NCBI GenBank assembly: GCA_945860955.1
Contig: CAMATH010000059.1
Coordinates: 1 to 48,243 of the forward strand
Source of the DNA: Planctomicrobium piriforme
GTDB taxonomy: Bacteria > Planctomycetota > Planctomycetia > Planctomycetales > Planctomycetaceae
Reading direction: 5' to 3'
DNA: 48,243 bases
In this document: piece after piece, positions 31,788 through 37,923 of the stretch
Layout of the letters: each line of letters begins with the position of its first letter
Numbering within the stretch: the stretch's first letter is position 1
The notes under the pieces: model-generated
The model's database searches: none
Seen by the model: the letters and a program-made list of their open reading frames with translations, nothing else
What the model was told of the DNA's origin: nothing
Translations under genes and position numbers: made by a program

Positions 31788-33248
31788 ATGTCGCTCGCCA
31801 GTCGTGTTCGTCGTTGGGTCTGCCTCTGTTGCCCGCTATTGGTCGTGGCGACATTCGTCGGCTGTGGGGGGCAGGCGATTCATATTGAGACGAAGATCCA
31901 TCCCAACGGCTCGATCGATCGCGCGTTCTGTCAGCCGAGCGAGACAATTCCCGCCGCGTCGCTCGACGAACAGCTCTGGACCAAAGTGAGAGAGGTCAAG
32001 GCCGTTCCACGGGGGCCGTTGGAGACACCGATCCGGGAACTGGCTCCCCCGGGGAAAATGGGCGAGGCGACCGCGGTCGTGGCGTGGGGGACGTTTCTTT
32101 CGATCGCCGATCTGCCAGAACATTTCCTGCATCCCTCTGTGGGTGCGCGTGAGCCGAGCCGACTGAAACCGGCCTTGGAACTGGTCGACCATGGCCTGAT
32201 CACGGAGGGAACGTGGCAGGAATCTCTGAACGATGAGGTCTCGGGGGAGGACCAGCGGGCCGCCTGTCAGGAGCTGGCCGAGCTGGGATCGCGGTTGCTC
32301 CCGAAGACGCTCGCGCTCTGGATGGAGCGGGAAATCAATGAAGAGGTGAATGCGACCGCGTTGGCGGACTGGATGCGTGGGGAGGGAGCCCGCCTGGTGA
32401 CTGAACTGGCGTTTGTGATCTATGACGCGGGGTTGCGAAAGAAGCTTTATTCCGACGAAGCGTACGTGCAATCCCGGTTATTGGCTGTGGCCCGCCACCA
32501 TGGAATCCCCCTGACGTCCGACACCGAGGGAGAAGAAGAAGTAGACGACGAAGACGAGAAGCGAAAAGCGGAGTTGGAAGCTCAGCTCTTTGATTTGCTC
32601 AAACGGGCGGTTCGGACCAAAGACGGTGGTCCGATTCCACGGGAGCGATTTCAGCGGCTGTTCGAGATTGGAACGAATGGATGGCCGAACCCAAATCTGG
32701 TTCCCGTGTACACCACAGAGCAGGTGGCCGAGGAACACAAGAAACTCGTGGCATTGTTTAAGACCGTGCGCGGAGAGGTATTTGGTCCGGGCGAGGCCGG
32801 CGACGCGAAATTCGATGCGAAGCTGGCGGAATTGCGAGAGCGGATTCTGGGACTTTACACGTTTACTCCGCCGGTCAACTTTCACTGTCGACTGGAAGTG
32901 CCCGGACACGTTCTCAGCACCAATGGCGTGGTCACCGACTCGGGACAGGTGGAGTGGAGTTTCGAGGGGAAGGAAGCGTTTCCCTCGGTGTATGTGATGG
33001 AGTGTCACTGGGTGGCCCCTTCCAAAGACGCCAAGATGCCAGATTCAGTCGCGCAGGCGATCAAGAACCCAAAGAACCTGGTGGAGCTGCTGCGGCTGGT
33101 GAAGGCGAACTCCCTGATCGCCACCGCGGTCGAAGAATGCGCCAAGACAGGTGATCTGAAGCCGTTGAAGCAGCGGGCGATAGAGACCTTCCTCCTCCCC
33201 GAGCGGCGGACGGTCGAAAAGACGCTGAAGCTCTTGGGGGAAAAATGA
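31788..33248 (+). CDS. Lipoprotein of unknown function (486 aa)
   Basis: The N-terminus has a basic start, a hydrophobic core and a lipobox-like FVGC at residues 23-26 (Cys26 would be lipid-modified after cleavage), followed by GGQ. The mature protein is hydrophilic, with helical segments, an acidic stretch near residue 245 (EGEEEVDDEDEKRKAE) and a beta-rich part around 360-410 (YTFTPPVNFHCRLEVPGHVLSTNGVVTDSGQVEWSFEGKEAFP). No enzymatic motif is visible. It converges with the DUF1501 gene across the four-hairpin repeat. Confidence 0.8.
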   Translation: MSLASRVRRWVCLCCPLLVVATFVGCGGQAIHIETKIHPNGSIDRAFCQPSETIPAASLDEQLWTKVREVKAVPRGPLETPIRELAPPGKMGEATAVVAWGTFLSIADLPEHFLHPSVGAREPSRLKPALELVDHGLITEGTWQESLNDEVSGEDQRAACQELAELGSRLLPKTLALWMEREINEEVNATALADWMRGEGARLVTELAFVIYDAGLRKKLYSDEAYVQSRLLAVARHHGIPLTSDTEGEEEVDDEDEKRKAELEAQLFDLLKRAVRTKDGGPIPRERFQRLFEIGTNGWPNPNLVPVYTTEQVAEEHKKLVALFKTVRGEVFGPGEAGDAKFDAKLAELRERILGLYTFTPPVNFHCRLEVPGHVLSTNGVVTDSGQVEWSFEGKEAFPSVYVMECHWVAPSKDAKMPDSVAQAIKNPKNLVELLRLVKANSLIATAVEECAKTGDLKPLKQRAIETFLLPERRTVEKTLKLLGEK

Positions 33249-33383
33249 CCGGGCGGGTGCGGGAGGGTGAGACTGGGGTGATGATAATTCGGTATTGACG
33301 GTCGCGTTTTCCGTCTTGTGAGTTCGTATATTTGTTGCGCCGTCCCGGCGGCGCGAACTGGGAGTTCATGAGACATGCGCCGG

Positions 33384-33715
33384 GAGACCCCATCCGGCTC
33401 GCCCGGATGGTGAATGAGATCGGCAGCTAGAAAAATCGCTCGAATTCGCGCCAGACCCCATCCACCTCGTGTGGATGGTGAATCAGATCCTCGCTCTGTC
33501 GATCAAGTTTGACGTGCGTTGAAAAACGCGTAAAAAGCGACCTTATTAACGTCCGGGTCAAACTCGTCGATTCGATCATTCAACCGAAGCGTGTTTGGCA
33601 GAGCGAAGATCTTGTTCACCAATCCACACAAGGTGGATGGGGTCCAGTTTTGAAACCTGCGTTGTCTAGCCACCGATCTGATTCACCATCCGGACAAGCC
33701 GGATGGGGTCTGGAC
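33384..33715. repeat. Mirror-symmetric four-hairpin repeat between convergent genes
   Basis: Four hairpins with 8-bp stems and 5-base loops lie at 33390-33410, 33458-33478, 33619-33640 and 33686-33706. The outer two have stem CCATCCGG/CCGGATGG and the inner two CCATCCAC/GTGGATGG (the third has one bulged A). The first two read as GACCC...hairpin...TGAAT and the last two are the reverse complement. Spacing is 68 bp on the left and 67 bp on the right, and flanking sequence (e.g. CGCTCTG, GTTTGAC) is also mirrored. The whole is therefore an inverted duplication of a two-hairpin unit around a roughly 100-bp centre. Confidence 0.85.
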
Positions 33716-33731
33716 TACGCACAGGGAAAAT

Positions 33732-35120
33732 TCAGACCAGGATCTCGTGAACGACCCGGCCGTACAGGTCGGTGAGGCGGTAGTCCCGGCCGGCGTGGCG
33801 GTAGGTGAGGCGTTCGTGGTCGAGGCCCATGAGGTGCAGAATCGTCGCGTGCAGGTCGTGAACATGCACCTTGTCCTGCACCGCGCGAAAGCCGAAGTCG
33901 TCGGTCGCGCCGTACGCCATCCCTCCCCTCACGCCAGCTCCCGCCAGCCACATCGTGAATCCCCAGTGGTTGTGATCGCGACCGTTGCCGCTCTCGCTCG
34001 TGGGGGTCCGTCCGAACTCACCTCCCCAGACCACCAGCGTGTCATCCAATAACCCCGTTCGCTTGAGGTCAGCGAGCAAAGCGGCGATCGGGCGGTCAAT
34101 GTCGGCACACAGCTTCCGCGTCAGTTCATCATGCGTGCGATGCGTGTCCCAGGGCTGACCGTCCCCATAGTACACCTGCACCAGCCGGACACCCCGCTCC
34201 ACCAGTCTGCGGGCGAGCAGACATCCGTTGGAGAAATGACTGCTGCCGTACTCTTCACGCAAGGCAGCCGGTTCGCGGGCGAGATCGAACGCGTCCGAGG
34301 CGGCGAACTGCATCCGGAACGCAGTCTCCATCGCGCGAATCCGTCCCTCCAGCGCCGGGTCGGCGTCACGCGTCGCCAGGTGCTCGGTGTTCAATTCACG
34401 CAGGAACGCCAGTTGCTTCCGCTGACTGTCGATATCCAGCACCGGGTTCTTCAAGAACGGCACCATCTTATCGGGAGCCAGATCACTGTGGTTGATGTAT
34501 GTTCCCTGATGCTGCGCCGGCAGAAAACTGTTCGTCCACATTTCCGAAAAACGGACCGGCCTCCCCGGGCACAGCACGACATAGCCCGGCAGATTCTCGT
34601 TCTCACTCCCCAGTCCATACAACATCCACGACCCCATGCTCGGACGAAGCGGAGTGATCGTGCCGTTGTTCATCATGAACAGCGCCGGCCCGTGATTTGG
34701 GTTGTCGGTATGCATCGACCGCAACACACACAGGTCGTCGGCATGGGCGCTCAGCCGCGGGAGCAGGTCGCTGATCTCCAATCCGCTCGTCCCGTGCCGG
34801 TCGTATTTGTACGGGACCGCCATCAGCCCCCCGGTCGCGTTCTCGGTCCGCAGTTGAACCTCCTGCGGACGCTGGCCGGCGAACTCGTTGATTCGCGGCT
34901 TCGGGTCGAACAGATCCCCCTGAAACGGGCCGCCGTTCATAAAGAGCTGGATGACCCGTTTGACCTTCGGCACAGTCAACGGGCGGGGCTGCGCAGTTTC
35001 CGCGGCGCGCAACGCCCCCGCCAGCCCCAGGGTGGCGAATCCTCCTCCGACCGTCCCCAGCCAGTCGCGTCGCGACAACGGGGAGAGACCGGGTGATGAG
35101 ATCGATTCCAGCAATGACAT
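33732..35120 (-). CDS. DUF1501 protein (sulfatase-like), Tat-exported
   Basis: DUF1501 proteins are a planctomycete-expanded branch of the alkaline phosphatase/sulfatase superfamily and nearly always pair with a PSD1 cytochrome-like gene, as here. I start at the ATG at 35120, which gives a Tat signal (SPLSRRDWLGTVGGGFATLGLAGALRA). The hallmark stretches are RVIQLFMNGGPFQGDLFDPKP, HGTSGLEISDLLPRLSAHADDLCVLRSMHTDNPNHGPA, and VVWGGEFGRTPTSESGNGRDHNHWGFTMWLAGAGVRGG, with the final part DLHATILHLMGLDHERLTYRHAGRDYRLTD. All catalytic-region His/Asp residues of the family appear present. It starts 4 bases after the PSD1 stop. The natural substrate is unknown. Confidence 0.93.
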   Translation of the reverse strand: MSLLESISSPGLSPLSRRDWLGTVGGGFATLGLAGALRAAETAQPRPLTVPKVKRVIQLFMNGGPFQGDLFDPKPRINEFAGQRPQEVQLRTENATGGLMAVPYKYDRHGTSGLEISDLLPRLSAHADDLCVLRSMHTDNPNHGPALFMMNNGTITPLRPSMGSWMLYGLGSENENLPGYVVLCPGRPVRFSEMWTNSFLPAQHQGTYINHSDLAPDKMVPFLKNPVLDIDSQRKQLAFLRELNTEHLATRDADPALEGRIRAMETAFRMQFAASDAFDLAREPAALREEYGSSHFSNGCLLARRLVERGVRLVQVYYGDGQPWDTHRTHDELTRKLCADIDRPIAALLADLKRTGLLDDTLVVWGGEFGRTPTSESGNGRDHNHWGFTMWLAGAGVRGGMAYGATDDFGFRAVQDKVHVHDLHATILHLMGLDHERLTYRHAGRDYRLTDLYGRVVHEILV

Positions 35121-35124
35121 GGGC

Positions 35125-37923
35125 TTAGTCCACAAACGCGAATTCGTTGCTTTCCAGAAGCGCCTGGGCGAGGCGAGTCCAACGGGTCTCGAGAGGCGTC
35201 TCCGGAGTGTCCGGTTTCAAAAAGTCCGCCACACGCCGCGACTCTTCCGAAGTGGGGGTGCGGGAGTACAGAATTCTCCAGGCGACGAGCGTTTGCGCGG
35301 TGACATCGGACGGCGCTTCACGCACGACCCGTGCGGCCAGTCCCTGCGCCATGGCAATGAGCATCGGGCTGTTGAGCGCGAACAATTGCTGCAACGGAGT
35401 CGTCGTGACGTCGCGATGCGACGAATGTTGCGTCGGATCGGGAAAATCATGCAGCCGCAACACCGCGCTCAGTTCCCGGCGTTTGATGTTTCCGTACACC
35501 GTTCGGCGGAAATTAGAGAGGTCATCGAGCGATCGATCGGGGCCACCAATTTCATTTCGCAACCGGTCGGTCGCGACCAGCATCGAGTCGCGCCACGCTT
35601 CGACATCGAGTCGTCGGCGGTTCATCCGCCACAGCAGATGATTGTCGGGGTCGACGGCGTGGGCCGCGGCGTTCGATCGGCTCGACTGTCGAAACGCCGC
35701 CGACAGCAGCAACTCGCGATGCAGCCATTTCAACGACCAGCCATTCGCGATGAACCGGGCGGCCAGATCGTCGAGCAGTTCCGGATGCGTCGGCGGCGCG
35801 CCGGTCGTGCCGAAGTTGCTGGGGGTCTCGACCAAACCCCGCCCGAAATGGTGTCTCCAGACCCGATTGACAATCACCCGGGCGGTCAGTGAGGCCGACT
35901 GTGTGCTGAACGCGCGGGCCAGATCGAGCCGACCGCTTCCGGTCTGGAAGTCGGCCGGTTTGTCGTCGGGGGTCAGCACCCGCAGGAATCGCCTGGGGAC
36001 GGTCGCGCCGGCGTTCGCCGGGTTCCCGCGAATCTGCAAGGCGACGTTCTGCGCCTCGCCCGTCCGGTATTCGATTTTCGTGCGATCGGGACCGTCGGGA
36101 AGAATTTGCAAGGCCGCGTCCTCGACACCGTAGACGAGGGGAGCCGACAGTTGTGGCGTTGCCTGTTCGATCGCCGTGATCCGTGCCGTCAGTTCGAGAA
36201 CTTCCTGTTCGAGTTCCGGCGTTTGCGGCTGTTTTCCCTTGAGGGCGTCGCGCTGCCGGTTCAGTTCCTCGAGTTGCTGGCGGACATGGGCGGCGATACG
36301 GGCATCGCGTTCGGGCAAGACGGCTCGTGGTGTCATGCGCGTGGAAGCAAGAACGCCAGCCAGGGCGTAGTAATCTTCGGTTGAGATCGGATCCTGTTTG
36401 TGATCGTGGCAACGGGCGCAGGCGACCGTCAGCCCCAGCACGGTCCCCGACAGCATTTGAATGTGTTCTTCCCATTCGTCAGCGACCACGGTCTTGATCA
36501 CGGTGGGATCGAGCTTCAGTTCTTTCCAGTAGGAAGGACTCAGGCCCAGCATGCCGAGCGCTGCGAGATCGGACGTCGCCGCGTCGGGCATCTGGTCGGC
36601 GGCGAGTTGCAGTTGCAGGAACCGGTCGTACGGCACATCGGCGTTCAGCGCTTCGACCACCCAGTCGCGATACATCCACGCGCGGGCCTGTTTATCCTGC
36701 GTCCACATTTCCAGCGTGTCGGCATAGCGGACCAGATCGAGCCACAACCGTCCCCAGCGCTCGCCGTACTGGGGGGAATCGAGCAATCGCTCGACTCGGC
36801 GTTCGTACGCGTCGGGAGAGGTGTCGTTGAGGAATTCCTCGATCTCCGCCGCATTGGGTGGCAGCCCGATGAGATCGTAATTCAGGCGGCGCAACAACGT
36901 CCGCCGGTCGGCTTCGTGAGCAGGCTCGAGATTCGCCCGTTCGATTTCGTGGAGCAGAAACGAGTCGATGCGCTGGCGGGACCAGACTTGGTTTTTCGTC
37001 ACCGGAACGGGATGTTCTCGCACTGGCTGGAACGACCAGAACTGTCGGCCGGCCGTGAAGTCGATGCCAGCCTTATGCGGCGCGGCGGGAGACGCGTCGC
37101 CGCCAGGGAACACGGCCCCCCGGCGGATCCACTCCGTCAGAAGTTCGACTTCTTTTGCGGAGAGTTTACCGCGCGGCGGCATCTGCAACGATTCGTTGGC
37201 GTAAGATATTGCTTCAATCAACAGACTCTCTTCGGGTTTGCCGGGGACGATGGCGGGACCGGTGTCACCCCCGGTGAGCAGGCCGGCACGGGAATTGAGG
37301 ACCAATCCACCTTTGATCGCGACCGGTTCGTTGGGATCATTCGCGTGACAGGAGTAACACTTCCCGACGAGCAATGGCCGGATCTTCGCTTCGAAGAACG
37401 CGACATCCTCGGGACTGGGTTGGGCGACATCGGGCGTCGCTTCGTTTGCCGCCGGGGTCGGTGGCGTCGATTCGGGAGCGGGAGTCTCCAGCAGAGCGAT
37501 CGCGATGGGAGTCGCGCTAACATCGGGAACAGCATCTCGGGAGGGCGAGGCTCCTGCCGAGCCGCGGTGTGAAGCAGTCTCCCTTCGCGGAGCCGCGCCC
37601 GTCAGGAAGCGGTAGCCGACAACCGCTTCCTGACGGGCGCGGCTCGGTTTGTCTGTTCTTTTTGTCGCCATGAGCGACACATGATTTCGCGCGAACCGGC
37701 TGTTGTGTGACGCTTCCGACCGGCACCTGGCGGTGCGCTGAGGCGAGCCGCGGAGCGTCTCGCCTACAAAAAGGACGCTGGCCGGCACCTGCGGTGCGGT
37801 GGGTTCGCTGCGGTCGATTTCGCCGGCCCGACATCCATTCCCCGGCACCAGCGCGACGGCAACACACAGACCCCCCAAGCGAATGAGCAGGGATCGCAAC
37901 ACAACACGCGCATTTAAGGGCAT
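35125..37923 (-). CDS. Planctomycete cytochrome PSD1-domain protein (PSCyt1-DUF1549-DUF1553) with repeat-derived N-terminal insert
   Basis: Order of parts: signal peptide (about 1-33), an unusual segment of about 110 residues (50-160), the PSCyt1 haem domain with CYSCH (189-193), then DUF1549 and DUF1553 (e.g. RRLNYDLIGLPP, YGERWGRLWLDLVRYADT, RVIVNRVWRHHFGRGLVETPSNFG, LHRELLLSAAFRQSS). Such proteins pair with DUF1501 partners and are exported haem proteins of unknown substrate. The 50-160 segment is not part of the family. Its DNA is largely made of dispersed palindromic repeats (37590-37645, 37698-37767 and a GGAGGGCGAGGCTCC-type motif near 37542-37562), translated in frame as ...RFLTGAAPRRE...RGSAGASPSR. 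The frame is intact, so the insert is tolerated or is a linker. Confidence 0.9.
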   Translation of the reverse strand: MPLNARVVLRSLLIRLGGLCVAVALVPGNGCRAGEIDRSEPTAPQVPASVLFVGETLRGSPQRTARCRSEASHNSRFARNHVSLMATKRTDKPSRARQEAVVGYRFLTGAAPRRETASHRGSAGASPSRDAVPDVSATPIAIALLETPAPESTPPTPAANEATPDVAQPSPEDVAFFEAKIRPLLVGKCYSCHANDPNEPVAIKGGLVLNSRAGLLTGGDTGPAIVPGKPEESLLIEAISYANESLQMPPRGKLSAKEVELLTEWIRRGAVFPGGDASPAAPHKAGIDFTAGRQFWSFQPVREHPVPVTKNQVWSRQRIDSFLLHEIERANLEPAHEADRRTLLRRLNYDLIGLPPNAAEIEEFLNDTSPDAYERRVERLLDSPQYGERWGRLWLDLVRYADTLEMWTQDKQARAWMYRDWVVEALNADVPYDRFLQLQLAADQMPDAATSDLAALGMLGLSPSYWKELKLDPTVIKTVVADEWEEHIQMLSGTVLGLTVACARCHDHKQDPISTEDYYALAGVLASTRMTPRAVLPERDARIAAHVRQQLEELNRQRDALKGKQPQTPELEQEVLELTARITAIEQATPQLSAPLVYGVEDAALQILPDGPDRTKIEYRTGEAQNVALQIRGNPANAGATVPRRFLRVLTPDDKPADFQTGSGRLDLARAFSTQSASLTARVIVNRVWRHHFGRGLVETPSNFGTTGAPPTHPELLDDLAARFIANGWSLKWLHRELLLSAAFRQSSRSNAAAHAVDPDNHLLWRMNRRRLDVEAWRDSMLVATDRLRNEIGGPDRSLDDLSNFRRTVYGNIKRRELSAVLRLHDFPDPTQHSSHRDVTTTPLQQLFALNSPMLIAMAQGLAARVVREAPSDVTAQTLVAWRILYSRTPTSEESRRVADFLKPDTPETPLETRWTRLAQALLESNEFAFVD
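37590..37645. repeat. Perfect 24-bp inverted repeat with 8-base loop, inside the PSD1 coding sequence
   Basis: Left arm 37590-37613 and right arm 37622-37645 are exact reverse complements of 24 bases (right arm begins ACCGCTTCCTGACGGG), around the loop AGCCGACA. The same 24 bases occur alone at 31694-31717. On the coding strand it is translated in frame within the PSD1 N-terminal insert. In RNA it would form a very stable hairpin in the 5' part of the PSD1 mRNA. Confidence 0.9.
37698..37767. repeat. Dispersed palindromic repeat (GGCTGTTG...CTCGCCTAC), copy 2
   Basis: Matches 6709-6773 over about 65 bases with small indels and the same terminal hairpin AGGCGAG/CTCGCCT. It is located within the PSD1 coding sequence, and translates in frame (GETLRGSPQRTARCRSEASH on the leftward strand). 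Confidence 0.7.

Follow-up and report, generated by a model that had tools for sequence, protein, structure and literature searches.

Catalysis by the IS608 transposase dimer combines the tyrosine of one subunit with the HUH motif of the other, and the sharing of active sites in IS608 TnpA is reportedly the subject, to judge from its title, of a 2005 study by Ronning et al. The ends of IS608 carry hairpins on the same strand. Related systems are described in the part of Quentin et al. (2018; PMC6006769) available to us, in which the tyrosine motif of the RAYT/REP transposases is given as Y---NP. According to the same part of that article, class 3 TnpA_Y1 occurs in Planctomycetes, Acidobacteria and Proteobacteria, has the motifs Y----Q and NHVH and a CnGA foot, and appears in a table row with lengths of 178 and 155; its genes are flanked by atypical hairpins, which may occur in large numbers within the host (PMC6006769). 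The CGTC-tagged REPs have 8–9 bp stems, 4–5 nt loops, a CGTC foot and A/T pairs at the first two stem positions, and form dimers of opposite orientation; no dedicated transposase is known for them in the available portion of their description (Di Nocera et al. 2013; PMC3733652). Neither a fused two-domain Y1 transposase nor the repeat described below was named in the titles and abstract openings of the literature searched.

The window analyzed here is a 48,243-nucleotide stretch of the Planctomicrobium piriforme genome (GCA_945860955.1, contig CAMATH010000059.1). It contains a four-hairpin element located between two convergent genes, with the following features.

33384..33715, no strand: whole four-hairpin element, A+ B+ B- A-; the outer limits are approximate, the flanks of related copies having been compared
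33386..33410, plus strand: hairpin A, with GACC foot, stem CCATCCGG/CCGGATGG and loop CTCGC
33454..33478, plus strand: hairpin B, with stem CCATCCAC/GTGGATGG and loop CTCGT
33479..33619, no strand: central spacer separating the inverted hairpin pairs
33620..33644, minus strand: hairpin B', with stem CCATCCAC, loop CTTGT and a T of the 3' arm bulged or mismatched
33686..33710, minus strand: hairpin A', with stem CCATCCGG and loop CTTGT
31788..33248, plus strand: upstream convergent gene (context)
33732..35135, minus strand: downstream convergent gene (context), putatively a DUF1501 gene

The hairpin coordinates comprise GACC plus 21 nt, and every hairpin of the window has the GACC foot, an 8-bp stem and a 5-nt loop. 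The initial annotation had proposed an A-B-B'-A' series with loops CTCGC, CTCGT and CTTGT between convergent genes. The series is real (33386–33710), and its loops read CTCGC, CTCGT, CTTGT and CTTGT. The two-base-pair change from A to B, said to affect both arms, was located at the two innermost pairs of the stem (GG/CC versus AC/GT). The proposed spacing of 67–68 bp in each half holds for the left half, where the hairpins start 68 bp apart, but not for the right half, where the distance is 66 bp. The stem of B' is imperfect near the foot, because its 3' arm reads GGATTGG; this extra T is typical of the commonest B hairpins (33 + 21 of the copies examined have GGATTG versus 9 + 4 with GGATGG). 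The right half had also been described as an inverted copy of the left half, flanks included, and the element indeed matches its own reverse complement with 71% identity over most of its length (query positions 16–342 of 361). A single DNA strand of the element folds at -105.9 kcal/mol (z = -15.7 versus 100 shuffles). Scanning of the whole window for 8-bp stems with seven or more pairs and a CYYGY loop revealed four hairpins, all belonging to the element.

The repeat is not confined to this locus. The hairpin pattern (up to two mismatches) was found 101 + 102 times in the 8.4-Mb genome of P. piriforme, compared to 2 + 4 times with a reversed control, although the total of 203 versus 6 is an upper figure, since each C-type hairpin registers on both strands. 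A BLAST search with the element as query gave 129 pieces in the same genome. The window and 50 further loci fetched from this genome, which represent a part of all pattern matches, contained 54 hairpin clusters, at least one of which (L059:599-623) is likely a chance match. Complete A+B+B-C- units, i.e. two inverted hairpin pairs, constitute 18 of the 54 clusters. The A+B+B-A- arrangement occurs once, in the window, and this variant is divergent from the units that adjoin the transposase gene described below; the remaining clusters are shorter or mixed. The shorter ones look like deletions between hairpins. According to a home-made gene finder, 51 of the 54 clusters lie outside genes. Of the 43 clusters with both neighboring genes called, 13 are placed between convergent, 29 between co-directional and one between divergent genes, while the 47 background gene pairs of three reference stretches comprise 9 convergent, 31 co-directional and 7 divergent pairs.

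A search based only on the hairpin flanks returned 174 distinct 21-mers, mostly unpaired chance matches, and also other paired stems with the same flanks: CCTACCCC, CCTGTCCC (with one G-T pair) and CCTGCCAC. Loci L061, L081, L089 and L117 carry extra hairpins with stems CCTGCCTC, CCTACCCC, CCTGTCCC and CCTGCCAC and GACC/TGAAT-like flanks. Hairpins of this kind, with other stems and similar GACC and TGAAT flanks, may represent older families of this system.

The P. piriforme genome contains 13 matches to the Y1_Tnp profile, and complete hairpin units are present beside only one of them (C60:31116-31919), with one unit on each side of the gene. At another Y1_Tnp locus, L051, there is one half-matching hairpin. 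The gene C60:31116-31919 encodes a protein of 267 aa, a single chain in which Y1_Tnp matches two stretches; it is the only gene of the genome with two such domains and the only match of its family there. The dispersal of the repeat, the mostly intergenic position of its clusters and the complete units flanking a Y1/HUH transposase gene together support the suggestion, made in the initial annotation, of a REP/BIME-like transposition unit.

Relatives of the fused transposase were detected in 24 of the 150 genomes of the family, P. piriforme included, with one match in 20 of these 24 genomes and two or three in the other four. In a scan of the phylum 25 of 294 genomes matched. Most of the profile was covered in P. 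piriforme and only three further genomes (G273, G223 and G288); the other matches were partial, as ordinary single-domain proteins would give. A second scan yielded 22 named loci, nearly all of them labeled Planctomycetaceae, Pirellulaceae or otherwise as planctomycetes, including strain CA13 and Rubripirellula obstinata. Two metagenome bins, labeled Nitrospinia and Kuenenia (L159 and L172), also contained the fused transposase, whole or as a fragment; these occurrences reflect either transfer between phyla or mis-binning. The protein of L165 (labeled Schlesneria) is identical to that of L136 from G124, a genome of the same family as the window. Together with the other names, this puts the window among the Planctomycetes. 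A contig search with the P. piriforme protein alone as query confirmed no relative.

The association of the hairpins with this gene was examined at 39 transposase loci, using the same rule as for the window (8-bp stem, seven or more pairs, CYYGY loop) within 500 bp of the gene. These loci are not all independent, since related genomes are among them, though the gene sequences differ. At least one hairpin was found at 33 of the 39 loci; none was found within this distance at L145, L146, L148, L161, L167 and L174, the last being that of Rubripirellula obstinata. The gene of strain CA13 (L164) does have nearby CYYGY hairpins. In total the flanks contained 159 hairpins, compared to 20 base shuffles that averaged 0.0, and the 12 other Y1 loci of the P. 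piriforme genome, used as a control, hold two such hairpins in all. The nearest hairpins were oriented plus upstream and minus downstream at 18 of the 39 loci, minus upstream and plus downstream at 6, and otherwise or on one side only at 9. The P. piriforme locus shows minus upstream and plus downstream, a consequence of the full units on either side of the gene.

When any loop was allowed, CYYGY was present in 60 of 66 perfect hairpins (21 loci, 700-bp flanks) and in 71 of 84 (28 loci, genes with 700 bp around them), these two sets of loci sharing part of their genes. Neighboring hairpins on the same strand were 64–85 bp apart in 63 of 72 cases. The stems differ between genera: 152 distinct hairpins from 35 transposase loci of other genomes have 45 different stems, with C kept at position -2 in 146 and T at position +10 in 113 of them. 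The pairing proposed earlier to be conserved while the sequence changes is thus supported more strongly by these 45 stems than by the A-to-B difference. As the rule used to collect the 152 hairpins presupposed both pairing and loop, it is the loop enrichment, the pitch and the gene-adjacent position that carry the argument. Dispersal beyond the gene flanks was examined in the genus of P. piriforme and in genomes G147 and G149. G147 has a unit whose stems are quite different, and it too is dispersed in that genome (48 pieces). A search of G149 with the unit of L132 found nothing; the hairpins of G149 have other stems.

To characterize the fused protein, its motifs were first read from alignments. 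In 18 aligned members, Y and Q are invariant in the N-half and D, H and H in the C-half; in a second set of 18 named members, which shares some genes with the first, Y, Q, H and H are invariant. The motifs were also read in 35 genes up to the stop codon, leaving out broken or partial genes (L131, L146, L148, L149, L152, L154, L171–L173 and L175) and duplicate fetches. The N-half contains YxxxQ in all 35 (33 by script, and L142 and L145, which matched from query residue 38–39, by eye) and HUH in none, while the C-half contains HUH in 34, the exception being L137 with DHLP. After the last strand of the C-half (4 to 46 residues) YxxxQ is absent from all 35 genes. A tyrosine is found in this tail in four of them; it was considered as a second YxxxQ and rejected, as it belongs to an EYD motif in L142, L145 and L161 and to a later HYASG in L133. 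Counted from the start of the match, the proteins are 254–298 aa long in 33 of the 35 cases, and two are truncated (231 and 235 aa).

Each half was then compared with known Y1 domains. With a threshold of E up to 1, the N-half alone matched Y1_Tnp in all 18 members, covering in the first member profile positions 32–121, the tyrosine end. The C-half alone matched in 16 of 18 at the same threshold, covering in the first member positions 22–79, the HUH part, with 20.9 bits, below the cut-off of 23. In an alignment with PDB entries, the IS608 transposase aligned to the N-half (30–137) and other IS200-type transposases to the C-half. The predicted full-length structure (pLDDT 91.2, pTM 0.89) consists of two domains with the same order of strands and helices. 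The C-half of this model resembles Y1 transposases with Z of 7.9–10.0. The N-half folded alone is of lower confidence (pLDDT 79, pTM 0.65); its fold matches 15 Y1 entries with Z of 10.1–11.6, the next other fold scoring 8.3. A direct profile comparison of the two halves with hhalign was not significant (probability 0.14 of 100, E 0.43), with the register in agreement.

Since the tyrosine and HUH are shared across subunits in an IS608-type dimer, the simplest inference is that the fusion has kept one of the two shared sites, so that the fused protein would hold the motifs for a single composite site, made of the N-half tyrosine and the C-half HUH. We consider it quite probable that the four-hairpin element is a non-autonomous REP/REPIN-like repeat, whose hairpins are the ends recognized by the fused transposase described above, a single-chain Y1 (HUH) protein with two domains and one gene copy elsewhere in the genome. 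The two halves of the protein may pack like the IS608 TnpA dimer and form one composite active site, in which the tyrosine of one domain would face the HUH of the other. Such an enzyme would bind the hairpins in single-stranded DNA, cut near their foot and then move or copy the unit.

In this scheme the window copy would be an older, divergent copy that lies between two gene ends and is also found at this site in a sister species. Genome G002 has the element at the orthologous site with the left A hairpin missing; the two matching parts share an overlap of 37 bases there, which recombination between the A and B repeats would be expected to produce. Contig C69 of G002 carries another A-B-B-A copy. 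Three candidates for an empty site were rejected: the window site of G002, where the element is present with one hairpin fewer; that of G011, where the downstream gene aligns from window position 33724 with none of these hairpins and the intergenic DNA is too different; and the G002 site of the C6:83.4-kb copy, where the element is absent, but the flank has diverged too. No clean empty site or transposition event was seen at the sites compared in G002 and G011. At the position of the transposase gene, G002 has only a remnant (71 bp at 79% identity and 23 bp, in order), and no intact relative of the fused transposase was found in this draft genome of about 90% completeness. The remnant (L217, G002:C505) directly follows the neighboring gene, which we take to be EF-G-like, where P. 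piriforme has the intact transposase. Copies can thus outlive the enzyme, as G002 keeps the repeats with a remnant and no intact transposase found.

Multiplication of the units probably involved a second mobile system as well, since 10 of the 18 complete units of P. piriforme lie inside a MITE with terminal inverted repeats (TACTCCRCRCGGC), mostly with TA flanks. This MITE, presumably IS630-like, is an abundant family (e.g. L061:1482-1992, i.e. C6:30481-30991, and also among L177–L196) with varied contents, some copies having GTAGGACGGGTCTCTGACCCGTCC-like inner hairpins. Loci L106, L107 and L108 hold very short one-hairpin derivatives, and in L107 and L108 both terminal repeats of the MITE are retained, a pattern that a deletion between hairpins, removing the interior of the unit, would leave behind. 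The hairpin cassette could accordingly be a passenger of the MITE, with the hairpins as inert cargo. Within the 50 loci there are 17 elements with both terminal repeats, 10 of them holding complete units (506–528 bp) and 7 of 151–438 bp; the terminal repeat pattern (up to two mismatches) occurs 111 + 115 times in the genome versus 2 + 7 times in the control, and there are elements with these repeats that have other contents or only hairpin fragments. However, the repeat was seen neither beside the window copy, nor beside either unit at the transposase gene, nor, for the nearest relatives of the window copy, within the 45 bases that adjoin their hairpins on the outside, and in many genera the transposase is flanked by hairpins built in the same way. 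Inert cargo is possible yet rather unlikely as an explanation of the repeat; it may hold for some copies alongside recognition by the fused transposase.

The initial annotation had also considered a bidirectional transcription barrier, and the element might act between convergent genes as a terminator or RNA stabilizer, like some REPs used by the host. The hairpins lie 138 and 22 bp from the two convergent gene ends, the element folds strongly (z = -15.7), and divergent placement is rare (one of 43 scored copies versus 7 of 47 background pairs). Nevertheless, a terminator and promoter scan of positions 33200–33800 revealed nothing, a terminator-like site included, an Rfam search of positions 33000–34100 gave no match up to E = 1, and 29 of the 43 copies are located between co-directional genes. 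This function, which leaves both the link to the transposase and the genus-specific stems unexplained, is unsupported by the sequence and appears improbable. It is very improbable that the hairpins are dispersed binding structures for a host protein (e.g. gyrase or a nucleoid protein) unlinked to transposition: the clusters are mostly intergenic and REPs do serve as binding sites for host proteins (according to the available part of PMC6006769), but such a role would not lead one to expect, across genera, hairpins of matching loop and pitch next to one transposase family.

Recognition of the hairpins by the fused transposase bears on the spread of REP-like repeats and on the routes by which a dimeric single-strand transposase may become monomeric or domesticated. 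A dimer in a single chain, left with one composite site, could be an intermediate or a side branch. The system offers pairs of enzyme and hairpin in which the stem sequence varies while loop and pitch are constant and, if the proposal is true, it would explain dispersed intergenic repeat families in planctomycete genomes. It is moderately likely that we are dealing with a distinct class of HUH transposase, namely a fused asymmetric Y1 dimer with one of two possible sites, together with a new type of end, consisting of two hairpins spaced by ~70 bp, inverted at the other side, with a fixed CYYGY loop and stems that drift between genera by compensatory change; the window element would then be a non-autonomous copy.

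Like REP/REPIN/REPtron with RAYT (TnpA_REP, class 2; Quentin et al. 2018), it comprises short, mostly intergenic hairpins dispersed as inverted pairs, hairpins that flank a Y1 transposase gene (with dispersal shown only in the P. piriforme genome and G147) and a single gene per genome in 20 of the 24 matching genomes. Unlike RAYT/REP, it has YxxxQ in place of Y---NP, a two-domain protein, often two hairpins per side, and a score of 20.8 bits against the NCBIfam model REP_Tyr_transpos (cut-off 80; P. piriforme protein only). The GT[AG]G foot was not found within 8 nt of the stem in any of the 152 hairpins from 35 loci of other genomes, and the CnGA foot in only seven, so neither foot was retained as a hallmark. 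A planctomycete host and a hairpin-flanked gene are shared with class 3 TnpA_Y1, which is distinguished by its Y----Q (Y---Q here), by its foot and by the two domains of the present protein. The CGTC-tagged REPs have stems and loops of similar size and dimers of opposite orientation, but differ in their CGTC foot and in their first two stem positions, which are C-G pairs here in 150 and 139 of the 152 hairpins. The HUH and YxxxQ motifs and the Y1 fold of both halves are those of the IS200/IS605 TnpA proteins (class 1; IS608 and ISDra2), with a marginal score of 55.8 bits against the NCBIfam model transpos_IS200 (cut-off 55; P. piriforme protein only), and an active site would be shared between two domains as in the IS608 TnpA dimer. 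In contrast to class 1, the two motifs are located in separate domains rather than in one of ~150 aa, the two domains form a single chain whose motifs suffice for only one composite site, and the hairpins are often doubled and inverted on two sides. The system works like REP/REPtron, yet the RAYT/REP marks tested (foot, tyrosine motif and model score) fail. By motif, it is nearer to class 1 TnpA, and it differs from class 3 by motif, foot and number of domains.
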